Positions 16,036 through 20,713 of a DNA stretch of 21,059 nucleotides are shown here, one piece after another; position 1 is the first letter of the stretch, and the number at the start of each line of letters is the position of its first letter. Location: contig JALLAZ010000147.1 of NCBI GenBank assembly GCA_036939755.1, positions 1 to 21,059 on the forward strand, given 5' to 3'. The notes under the pieces are model-generated. The model ran no database searches. It was given only the letters and a program-made list of their open reading frames with translations, and was not told the origin of the DNA. Source of the DNA: Stephanodiscus triporus (taxonomy: Eukaryota; Bacillariophyta; Thalassiosirophyceae; Thalassiosirales; Thalassiosiraceae). Both the position numbers and the translations under genes were made by a program.

Positions 16036-19000
16036 CTAGAGCCCAAGCCATTTTATGTCCAACACATCGCCAGTCCTAGAATTGATCTCGTCCATTGTTG
16101 ACTTCCTCAGCCATGAGTAAATGTTGTCGGCCCAACCATTGCTCATATTTTTTATTGTTCGAAGGAAGATTACAGCATCATCAAGCTTTCTTTCGTGAAC
16201 GCACAATGAGAGGAAGTCTCGAACCTTATCAATTGCCCCGCTATCAGGATCCGGGTTGGACGAAATAAAGTCTTGCAGCGGAAGTACATTATCCTGATGA
16301 AAATTTGTGCACTGGTTCTCTGGAGAACCACTGCCTCGTTCCTTAACTTGCAAGCCACCAACAGCTAAAAATTCAACATCGTTCGTATCGTTTTGATCAG
16401 AATTGATGATCCTGTTTATCTTGTGTTTAGACTTCTTCATAATTTTGACTTCATCCTGATTTGCAAGCTGAAGTTGTAGCTCCAATGGTAAACGGTCTAA
16501 CTGACTTAAGCTGAGGTCGTTGCTGCCCAACTGTTCGTCGCCCGATTTAACGCATGCAAGTTTGAGCATCCGTCGAACACTTGCCTGACCCACGATTGGG
16601 ATTGGTTTATCATTCTGGAAACTCTTTCCTGGGCTCCTTGATTTTGACGGATTTAGTAGTGATGTGTTGCTTGAAGTTTGACTGCTTGACTTATGTCCAT
16701 ATGTCGCTCGTACTTCCATCAAAATATTCTCAGGCAAATTACTCAGCACATCCTGGTCAAGTTGGCTGAAAGATGGCATGGTTGCAAAGCCTGATGTGCC
16801 GCATTGATCATTCTCCGGTAAAGAAAAAAGATCTTGCTTTAAAGTCTCATGCAACTCGCGTGATTCATGGCCATCACATACTGTTGTTGACTTGTCCTTT
16901 TGCAACCACTCAGAGAGTTTTGATGGGCTTGAATTCAAAGCGCTAACTTCGTCATCGGATTTCAGTGAAGTTATCAAGATTCCTATGCCTCGTACGGATG
17001 AATCATTGACAACAAGTTTCTCATACAATTTCATAGCGGCTAAGAAAATGACTTCTTTGTCCCGAGTTAGTGACATTTCAGCACTCCTAGAGAAGCTATC
17101 ACAATGACCGTGGCCAAGAAATTTGCCAGGTACCTTTGAGGGATCTTTGCTCTTCATTACTTTGAGAACAATTTTGGATCCTCTAACGGCAGCAACAACC
17201 ATTCTGCTGTGAACCTCCTTTGCCAACCCTTGCATCATATAATCTACGCCATATGGGCCGTTAAAACGAACTCCATAATTGCACTCAGCGCCGATAGATT
17301 TCCGAATAGCGGGCGTAACTGGTCTATCATCCTTTCCATAACAAAACCTCACAATTTTATCCGCATTCCCTGTGCCAATTATCCCCCCCACCACGCTGAC
17401 TGCGTCTTGCTCTAGATCCCATATGTCATCGACAGTGCACAAACCATGTGACTGAAGTTTTGTTTCCAACTTGCGCCCGATACCTGGTATGTCCCGTAGC
17501 GACCGAGAGTGGAGGAATTCTCGCCAATCTCTTACGACACAACATGCATTTGGTTTCACTGTGTCAGCGGCAAGCTTTGCTAATAACTTTCCAGGAGTAA
17601 AGGTACAGCCATAAGTAACAATAAAAGAATGCTCTTGCATGTAATAATATCACAACACACCTTGTTAGGGCCGATACCGATCGATGCCGTGCACGCGGTA
17701 TTTCTCACAATGTCCGTGCGGATTTTCTCTGCAACGGAATTTACGAAAGCGTATATATCACTCCCGGTATCACTAGTTTTGATATTGATCTCAACGTAGC
17801 TCTCGTCACACGACACTTGCTCCACATATCCATTATAATGTTCAGCGTACCCGTGTAATAGATCCGCAACCACTCCAGAGACTTCTTCGTACCCGTCGAA
17901 ATCGTAGGGTAGAACAACAAGATCTGGACAAATCTCAATGGCATCACCTAAAAAATTCGGTCAGGTGAAAATTTCAGTAAGTTGTAATTTTATAACGAAG
18001 TTGGAGATTCGGTGCAACGCGGTCGCCTGGAACGGCCACGCACCTAGAAACATTCCCTTTCGTATGCCATGCTTCCTTGCAATGTAATTGCACGTAGATA
18101 GTTCAGAAGAAGAGTTCTTGTTTCGAGTCTTGGTCGTATTCTCATACAGATTAGTTCTCGCCACATGAGAATGTCCGACAGCAACTGGCTTGTCTCTGTA
18201 TTGCGGATATCTTCGAAGCGCTACTGAAGCAAAAAAGCAGTCCATATCGACGAGAAGAACAAACTTCCTTGCTCCAATTATTGATTGAGAATGACAAGCT
18301 GCCTGCTTTGTCGGCTTAACACGTTGCTTAAAGCTCCCTATGTAGCTTAGGCGAGAGTTGCTGAAGTATGATTCTAGAAAGTTTGGATCGTTGCCCACAG
18401 TGCGTACTTGTCCGTTAATGTGATAGTTTGCTTCGGACGGGGGCTTGTCTTCCCATCGATGCTGCGACTTTGGTTCATCAATCGAAAAACCATTCGAGCC
18501 TTTCTCTGGTGGTGTGATTTTGTCTCCCAATTGTTCATCCGCTGGCAATTCATCTGTCCGATCTGGATTTGGTCGAAAAAATGACTTGACCGATTTTGTT
18601 CCAACGACATCTCTATCTTGAACATTTTCAAGCAAGTAGTCACCAAACGGCAACAGCCTCCCACATTTCACACTTTCGGTTATCCACTCCGGTCGACAAA
18701 CCGGAGTCGGCTTCTTCTGGTGTTTATATATATTTGCCTTTGCAGCAGAAAGTTGTTCGGCAATTATGTGTGTGACTCGTTGAGTTTCGTATTTCTCCAA
18801 GTCTCCACCATGTTTGTGCAGTAGACGCATGAGGGTTGTTGCATCAGGTGATGTGTAGCCATTGACTAAGACAATGACCCCCATGAAGAAAAGGTCGGGT
18901 CTCTGATTTGGCTTTCTGGTTAATTTTATGGGAGGCGCTTCTGCTCGAATGATTGGCGACAAATGCGTGACAGATTCAGCAGATGATGCAGGGGAATGTT

Positions 19001-19862
19001 GCGTTAGTTGAGAAAGGCCCAGTTTAGGTGACATTGAACTCTTATGAAAATGATCTTCAGGATAACGTTGACCAAGGCAGTCATATGCAATCGGTTCATC
19101 CTCCTGGCTGGTGCTATCGTAACGTGTTGGCTCCAGTACCTCCAACAATGACCTGCCCTTACAAGTAGGACTTTCTGTTTTCCGTTTTGATAAAGGTGTG
19201 CCACTACCTGCGCCAGAATTGCCGTATGCCAAATACGAAGAAAAGCCAGCTCTGTCATCGTATTCCACCAAATCAAGGACTGATGATGTCTTCACGCCAA
19301 CACTTTGACTAATCCTGGGTCTCTTTGATGACTCGTCAGCAGTATATGATCGCTTTTTCTTGAGACAAGACGTTCCATGTCTTTTCTGCAGGTTATCCAA
19401 CACACCAAGAATAGAAGCATATTGATTGTCGGACTTATTGTCCGCTTCATCTGCTGACAGAGTTTCGGGTGCATCATTATCTGTCGACGACTCTCTATCT
19501 GAACCTGTCGGCCCTCGTAACTTTCGCTGACCTGTTTCAGCCGAAAACCGACTTGATTTCTCACCAGTGTGCTTTCGTTTGAGGTTATTTAACACATGCG
19601 ACACCCCCTCAAGAACCAATTTATCATGGAAGCGAACTGATTTTCTGTTTTTCGTTGAATTCGCATCTGTAATTGTTGCTGTTGGGACATCGCTGTTGCC
19701 AAAGGATTTCGTCGTAGGCGGCGGTGGTACAACCAAACCAAATTGCTTTCTCTGAAGTTCAATTTTACGCGCCATGTAATTCCGAAAGCCATCATCAGCA
19801 GGAACAGAGTTAAAGTTACTCCTTGACGTTCGCCCTCCAGAATTCATCGCTCGCTTCGCCAT
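16036..19862 (-). CDS. REV1: REV1 translesion DNA polymerase (three exons)
   Basis: Exons 19862-18044, 17947-17661 and 17586-16036 join across 96- and 74-bp introns (donors GTGCGT, GTGTGT) to 1218 residues. A disordered N-terminus (1-320) is followed by a BRCT domain (about 321-412, with Trp393 in PEWITESV). Then come SRLSYIGSF (502-510), whose Arg corresponds to the REV1 arginine that pairs with incoming dCTP, LLVDMDCFFASVALRRYP (536-553) and SCDESYVEI (652-660); Asp538, Asp654 and Glu655 are the expected metal-binding acids. Exon 3 opens with LLAKLAADTVKP and has the helix-hairpin-helix RDIPGIG. Two ubiquitin-binding motifs follow: LSNLPENILMEV (ending at 994) and LSQLDRLPLELQLQLA (about 1062-1077). 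The last 80 residues match the REV1 C-terminal domain that recruits polymerase zeta and Y-family partners. Role: dCMP insertion opposite abasic sites and damaged guanines, and scaffolding of lesion bypass. A palindrome array lies upstream. Confidence 0.95.
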
Positions 19863-19968: not shown

Positions 19969-20101
19969 ACTAGGTAATACCGTTCAGAGTCTTGGCATTC
20001 GGCACAGAGATCTGTTACGCACAATAGTTAGAATAATCATTTTAATAAAATGGCTTTTTTAGAACAGCCCTTTTTGACCCTGGTTATATATAATCCGGAA
20101 A

Positions 20102-20147
20102 AAAAGGGGGGAATTTTTCGTGGGCTAATTGTTGGTTCCCCCCTTTT
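20102..20147. repeat. Inverted repeat with G6/C6 arms at the edge of the palindrome array
   Basis: AAAAGGGGGGAA (20102-20113) and TTCCCCCCTTTT (20136-20147) are perfect 12-bp inverted arms around a 22-bp loop. The right arm touches the first member of the regular 21-bp array (20144). It could form a hairpin or cruciform, or mark a boundary of the array. Confidence 0.55.
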
Positions 20148-20254
20148 ATAACTATTCTACAGTCGATTAGTTATAATCGGACCCCGATTATATATAATCT
20201 GACCCCGATTATATATAATAGTACCCCTGATTATATATAATCTGCTATTTGTAT

Positions 20255-20282
20255 AGACCGTCATTATATATAATGACGGTCT
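20255..20282. repeat. 28-bp perfect palindrome inside the array
   Basis: The left half AGACCGTCATTATA is followed directly by its exact reverse complement with no loop. It is the array unit at 20262 with both terminal bases changed symmetrically (G to C and C to G) and seven matching bases added on each side. It is the longest uninterrupted palindrome in the window. Confidence 0.85.
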
Positions 20283-20377
20283 GATTATATATAATCAGGA
20301 GCCGATTATATATAATCATGGTTTGATTATATATAATCAGAAAACAAAACACGATTATATATAACCTTCATCCAGTT

Positions 20378-20412
20378 TAGTTAGAATGAGTGTTCCGCCG
20401 CCATTCTAACTA
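20378..20412. repeat. 11-bp inverted repeat where array polarity flips
   Basis: TAGTTAGAATG (20378-20388) and CATTCTAACTA (20402-20412) are perfect arms around a 13-bp GC-richer loop. They belong to two asymmetric array units (20375 and 20402) in opposite orientation, in the middle of the array. Confidence 0.7.
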
Positions 20413-20713
20413 TTCTAGGTCAGGTTATATATAATCAACGTCCGATTATATATAATAAGAATCCGATTATATATAATCAGATAGTGAATTATATAAAATG
20501 AATTTCCGGAATGTGAACCATTTTAACTATTCGTAAGCCGATTATATATAATCGGCTCCTGATTAGTTATAATCGTTCTAAAATCAGTCCATTCTAAGTA
20601 ATCTGTGTCTGTTTACATATAGTTGACAATAATTTTTTTTTTAGACAAGGGATCGGAGCTGGAGTATCACACGCTTGCGCACAATGATTCCAAGTTATGG
20701 TGTCCAATGATGG

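Follow-up and report, generated by a model that had tools for sequence, protein, structure and literature searches.

An array of 14-bp dyads in the diatom Stephanodiscus triporus, probably the subterminal region of a Ginger-like transposon

The array and its word in the genome

The stretch of DNA analysed here, called the window below, is 21,059 nt long and was read on the forward strand of contig JALLAZ010000147.1 (C147) of the Stephanodiscus triporus assembly GCA_036939755.1. The host is a diatom, and the organism names among the 120 matches listed for the window's ABC-F protein are those of diatoms, Cyclotella, Skeletonema, and Chaetoceros among them. Beyond a REV1-like gene, an array of short palindromes spans about 500 bp, bordered on one side by the end of a transposon and on the other by a truncated transposon gene, of which the 3' part is present (Table 1).

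Table 1. Coordinates of the array and of its neighbours in the window.
Feature	Positions	Strand	Basis
REV1-like gene, two frames (BRCT, IMS, IMS_C)	16036-19862	−	
GATC beside the terminus, putative 4-bp target duplication	20009-20012	none	Read in the sequence
Transposon end TGTTACGCA (degenerate TGTTACACC) and conserved subterminal stretch to ATTTTAATAAAATGGC	20013-20054	+	Aligns with the C33 and C335 ends
Array of 14-bp dyads GATTATATATAATC	20082-20574	none	16 units with at most 3 mismatches, 7 perfect
Perfect 28-bp palindrome centred on one array unit	20255-20282	none	Read from the sequence
3' part of the second coding domain, 114 codons and stop, open to the contig end	20714-21058	−	Frame read

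The array is a real feature, found where a preliminary description of this DNA had placed it, and the seven perfect palindromes reported there were counted again. Allowing at most three mismatches to GATTATATATAATC, we found 17 matches in the window, a number reached by no shuffle against an expectation of 0.59; all lie inside the array except the 17th, which stands apart at 18722. About 21 units, with a spacing of 21 or 22 bp in 14 of 20 intervals, had been described earlier, a count that included weaker units; its substance holds under a stricter rule (ATTATNNATAAT with at most two mismatches), which gives 17 units in the window and start-to-start intervals of 21 or 22 bp in 10 cases out of 16 (83, 21, 21, 22, 33, 21, 21, 21, 28, 70, 21, 21, 22, 53, 21, and 29 bp). 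Conserved cores and free spacers, also part of that description, are indeed what distinguishes these units: over 12 chosen units, the mean mismatch is 9.8% in the cores versus 66% in the 7-bp spacers, with ACCCC present in three of the latter. An ordinary tandem satellite does not account for these figures, since the whole period is not copied.

The genome-wide search for the 14-mer that had been recommended was run on the window's own genome (21.65 Mb in 1324 contigs), with the reversed word as a control. The exact 14-mer occurs 13 times per strand, versus 0 for the control, and on three contigs only, namely C147 with the window (7), C335 (4), and C33 (2). The 12-mer ATTATATATAAT has 25 matches versus 7 in the control, with 23 of the 25 on C33, C147, C335, and C671, while GATTATNNATAATC has 24 versus 0; 22 of these 24 lie in elements with a recognised end, one lies on C969 inside an array whose degenerate end was read by eye, and one, on C260, is unlinked. 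Judging from the 14-mer and 12-mer counts, the array word is thus not confined to this site, nor does it form a common satellite; what we found is a rare 14-mer with mostly uncopied spacers, and not the common satellite, spacers included, that the preliminary description had set against a specific role.

Copies, ends, and flanks of the element

The array is shared with copies of a mobile element found at other loci. Elements of 474 bp on C33 and 476 bp on C335 are 92% identical with unlike flanks; both start with GATC-TGTTACACC and finish with RGTGTGACA-GATC, so that their inverted ends read TGTYACACC...RGTGTGACA with GATC on each side. The window copy begins with GATC-TGTTACGCA at 20009, and its segment 20008-20288, which comprises the end and the first part of the array, aligns with C33 at 82% and with the C335 element at 79%. 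The claim of an end in the window rests on this alignment, because the match of the reverse strand at 20009-20021 to GGTGTGACAGATC has three mismatches, and a match of that quality is to be expected by chance somewhere in the window. Contig C671 terminates inside another copy.

Searching both strands for the end motif GATCTGTYRCACCTAATA with at most two mismatches gave 54 matches versus 4 in the reversed control, including copies without a gene that measure 154-158 bp on C109, C169, C394, and C108 and 604 bp on C1322. Like the C33 and C335 elements, the C1322 copy consists of ends and array only. The ends of the family (TGTYACACC, TGTYGCACC and similar, with TGTTACGCA as the window form) follow the Ginger-type rule TGTNR. 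How far the two ends of a copy are alike varies: inverted identity covers 53-54 of the first 60 bases in the four short copies and 11-12 of the first 13, with little further in, in C33 and C335, C1322 being intermediate (23/30).

GATC stands at 13 of the 14 ends of seven complete copies, the remaining end having GACC, a count that is biased because the copies were found using patterns that contain GATC. Better evidence that GATC is the target comes from C709 and C394, where two elements abut each time with one GATC common to both, which is what one would see if GATC were a target site lying outside the repeat. On C33, a frame of coding character (L005 4315-4710, plus strand) runs at its 3' end into the element and stops there; this copy was inserted within a gene or directly behind it.

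These copies bear on the preliminary reading of the array as a local element, be it a regulatory module of REV1, a replication origin, or a centromere. Its position invites such a reading: the gene that encodes BRCT and Y-family polymerase domains has its start codon at 19862, and the element end lies 147 bp upstream of it, a distance at which the insertion may affect the REV1-like promoter incidentally. Yet the same sequence, with inverted transposon ends and GATC, occurs at other loci, and there is strong evidence that the array belongs to a transposon; we therefore abandon both the REV1 element and its local variants, whose probability we consider close to negligible.

The copies also allow cores and spacers to be compared between loci. 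Over the first ~280 bp, the only part of the window copy that aligns, C33 differs from the window at 5 of 64 core and 23 of 65 spacer positions (Fisher p 0.0002) and C335 at 4 of 62 and 22 of 65 (p 0.0001); between C33 and C335 themselves, the figures are 8/154 and 24/230 (p 0.09), and these pairwise comparisons are not independent. Mismatch thus amounts to 8% of core sites versus 35% of spacer sites where copies are aligned with the window. This contrast, which extends the one within the array, fits recognition of the DNA by a protein dyad by dyad; a protein on each dyad had been proposed before, and here the pattern agrees with recognition while binding itself is inferred.

Related arrays and the transposon gene

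Arrays of the same general kind, built on different words, are present on further contigs, where ATTATCGATAAT, CCCATAGCGCTATGGG, and CCCCGTTACCATATGGGG are repeated. The word is CCCATAGCGCTATGGG on C1037, whereas C1257 and C867 carry CCCCGTTACCATATGGGG-type units that are only partly palindromic; the arrays of C1037 and C1257 were not seen to adjoin any recognised end. A second array, of CCCCATTTTGAAACGGGG-type units, abuts the C33 element and is itself without a tie to the gene. Units of ATTATNNATAAT, degenerate ones included, number 20 on C757, 16 on C1181, 12 on C969, and 13 on C1322; their centres are mostly CG, GG, CC, or AG, as against mostly AT in the window, C33, and C335. Some related words carry G+C edges.

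We compared the dyads of 11 arrays with first-order shuffles: the observed count was reached by 0 of 300 shuffles in seven arrays and by 1 of 300 in two, while C867 (120 bp) was not significant and C1111 holds 0 dyads. Four control stretches gave 0, 0, 2, and 2 dyads. The C1111 stretch (L051 990-1500) has an arrangement of its own, in which a 17-bp motif (ATATTTGATATTACATG-like) recurs many times as inverted copies, without forming simple dyads, beside an end of the same type and a short cysteine-rich frame.

The phasing at two helical turns, which was central to the preliminary description, recurs in part. Spacings of 20-22 bp prevail in C969 and C1322 and form one run in C33, but C1181 has mostly 25 bp and C757 alternates between 25 and 28 bp, and an exact 17-bp pair beside one end is common to C33, C335, C671, C1181, and C1322; two-turn phasing is therefore no rule of the family.

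One has to consider that such arrays could be a by-product without function, i.e., minisatellite-like blocks generated by slippage and gene conversion. Internal tandem repeats are on record for mobile elements (PMC7492417). Within an array, neighbouring units tend to keep one spacing, and spacers resemble one another in places, as with ACCCC in the window or CAGTGGTTCAC in C1181. However, passive copying would take the spacers along with the cores, which is not what the mismatch values within the array show; cores but not spacers are kept between aligned copies, the same architecture recurs with other words, and five copies have the 17-bp end pair in common. We regard this explanation as unlikely. 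Palindromes might also work in folded form, as DNA or RNA hairpins that would, for instance, help to recognise the ends or give rise to double-stranded RNA. As RNA, the array does fold much more stably than shuffles (z −11.5), which arrays of palindromes are bound to do, but many centres lack self-complementarity (GG, CC, AG, and CA in C757, C1181, and C1322) and outer pairs T..C and G..A are common; sequence, and not pairing, thus seems to be what is kept, and hairpins are a very unlikely explanation.

On the gene side, the fragment in the window contains GFQTWHRDF and KITTTIVVNVGSY and has nine further matches on eight other contigs. On C757, the second domain, another array, and an end stand on one contig, and it is on the parallel with C757 that membership of the window fragment in the element rests, as the window has one end only and the contig stops within its gene. 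On C757, a frame of ~210 codons with paired cysteines lies on the opposite strand (L049 300-960, minus), in the interval that separates the second domain from the array. The order on C1037 and C1257 is integrase tail, CXC cluster, second domain, and array; the cysteine cluster of C1037 reads HCNCRSECQTNQCSCKKAGRLCSSRCH, and the frame of C1257 is broken. C867 has an integrase frame of 835 aa, which is preceded by two array-type units and followed by the start of the second domain. Against Pfam rve, this frame scores E 1.7e-6 (28.6 bits, under the curated cut-off of 32.6), and its best solved relatives are integrases of the retroviral type, first a chain named Integrase (E 0.016) and then PFV integrase (E 0.14); DIIDF, QTDNGGEF, GGVERVN, and an HHCC-like stretch can be made out by eye. 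It is thereby predicted to be a transposase of the DDE integrase (rve) type, and no OTU or Ulp1 domain was found in it with Pfam.

In this genome, 20 matches to the integrase are spread over 10 contigs, and its tail has relatives in 111 public protein clusters, three of which are named Cyclotella cryptica and bear the partial label Tesmin/TSO1-like CXC. Public relatives of the second domain fall into 17 clusters. Comparison of second domains gave dN 0.33 and dS 1.18 between the window and C1037 and dN 0.38 and dS 1.53 between C757 and C1037, synonymous sites being saturated between the window and C757; with dN well below dS, the domain is under constraint. Its WHxD and YHxG motifs and a confident structure model, for which no fold match was found, allow no more than a guess at an iron-dioxygenase, possibly a permuted one; 2OG-Fe(II) dioxygenases are recognised by a double-stranded beta-helix bearing HxD...H...R. 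Another relative of the window fragment, on C935 (L076 238-3312, plus strand), combines in one frame the window-related domain, Ulp1 (E 6.1e-20), and SET (E 2.9e-18).

Within the genome, the window fragment is closest to the C1257 domain (75-81%), and the public protein P0009, 83% identical to it, has a start resembling the C867 domain. Since C1257 and C867 both carry other words, the kind of array does not track the second domain, and arrays seem to have been exchanged independently of it.

No single contig was found to carry the element in full, i.e., its two ends, its two arrays, and the entire gene. Pieced together from several contigs, the predicted anatomy of the family is GATC, an inverted end TGTYRCASC, a dyad array, the gene, an array, and an end, where the gene would encode a DDE integrase carrying a CXC-like cysteine cluster at its C-terminus, followed by the second domain with its WHxD motif.

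Possible roles of the array and known systems

We propose that the array makes up the subterminal region of a Ginger-like transposon and has a role in the mobility of the element itself, a reading to which we give a probability of about three in four. This figure covers both the transposon end and the role in mobility, and it overlaps with those of three of the rivals (host protein, by-product, and hairpins), which accept the transposon. Each dyad would be bound by a dimer, most likely of the element's transposase through its CXC cluster. In LIN54, the palindrome TTYRAA is read in the minor groove by a tandem pair of CXC domains, which take up its two halves (PMC4974476); with one CXC-like cluster per transposase, two subunits could read one dyad. 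A row of many sites may raise the local occupancy of the transposase, many dyads may mark the DNA as "self", and the arrays may help the two ends to pair for excision and for insertion at GATC, while a word private to each lineage would limit cross-mobilisation. Going one step further, these elements might be a clan of diatom integrase transposons whose lineages exchange the word but leave the other architecture unchanged; lineage-private words might then form a fast-turning recognition code, read by dimers of a single-CXC transposase in choosing between self and relative and hence in selecting the copies to be mobilised, with the second domain acting on DNA or chromatin at the array; this extension is tentative and, in our estimate, has the odds against it.

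The dyads could instead be bound by a host protein, for instance a silencing or chromatin factor, whose sites the transposon would have acquired or amplified in order to use or escape it. Conserved cores with free spacers would be expected here as well, and the independence of array kind and second domain speaks for it; still, sites of a host protein should normally also be found elsewhere, and the 14-mer is absent outside elements, its relaxed form nearly so, while related elements have unlike words, some of them G+C-edged. We hold a host protein to be quite unlikely and retain the transposase as the more plausible reader of the array.

Many short subterminal sites bound by an element-encoded protein are a feature of En/Spm and Ac. 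Unlike those, the sites here are dyads, in an array of ~500 bp, with unlike words among relatives. A close likeness exists with Ginger1 and Ginger2/TDD, which also have an integrase-type transposase and TGTNR ends, and whose 4-bp target duplications may have a counterpart here in GATC (PMC2836005). Ginger1 is described there with highly specific CCGG or CCGT duplications, inverted repeats of ~40-270 bp, and OTU or Ulp1; the inverted ends of our 154-158-bp copies (~60-70 bp) fall inside this range, but the C33 and C335 ends are alike over ~13 bp only, and a CXC-like cluster and a WHxD domain take the place of the C-terminal OTU or Ulp1. Other hallmarks are an H2C2 zinc finger in Ginger1 and Ginger2 and the GPY/F and YPYY motifs of Ginger1. 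Given matching ends, a repeat length that agrees in the short copies though not in C33 and C335, and different extra domains, the element is best classed from its sequence as Ginger-like and not as a member of Ginger1. The words "subterminal" and "palindrom" are absent from the text of the Ginger1/Ginger2 paper as searched (PMC2836005).

IS481EU elements also have TGT...ACA ends, 4-bp duplications in some families, and a DDE transposase of the wider group; they are described from parabasalids, with duplications also of ~15 and 25 bp, unlike the seven complete copies here, beside which no repeat of that kind beyond GATC was found (PMC10045372). If the motif-based guess at a dioxygenase holds, there would be a further likeness to the fungal TET/JBP DNA transposons, which carry an extra dioxygenase gene; "Ginger" and "integrase" are absent from that text as searched (PMC12730594). 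In Cyclotella cryptica, the Ginger superfamily has been annotated, in a passage that names the superfamily only and no arrays (PMC7466962), and it is this species that supplied three of the proteins matching the integrase tail of the present family. Such arrays are without description in the literature searched, mostly titles and abstract openings.

A striking non-coding array is in this way explained as part of a mobile element. One genome offers three to four unlike words, one of them with several centre variants, i.e., a natural series in which to follow the co-change of a transposase and its sites, and with 111 clusters of integrase-tail relatives in public data, the question of specificity can be tested widely.
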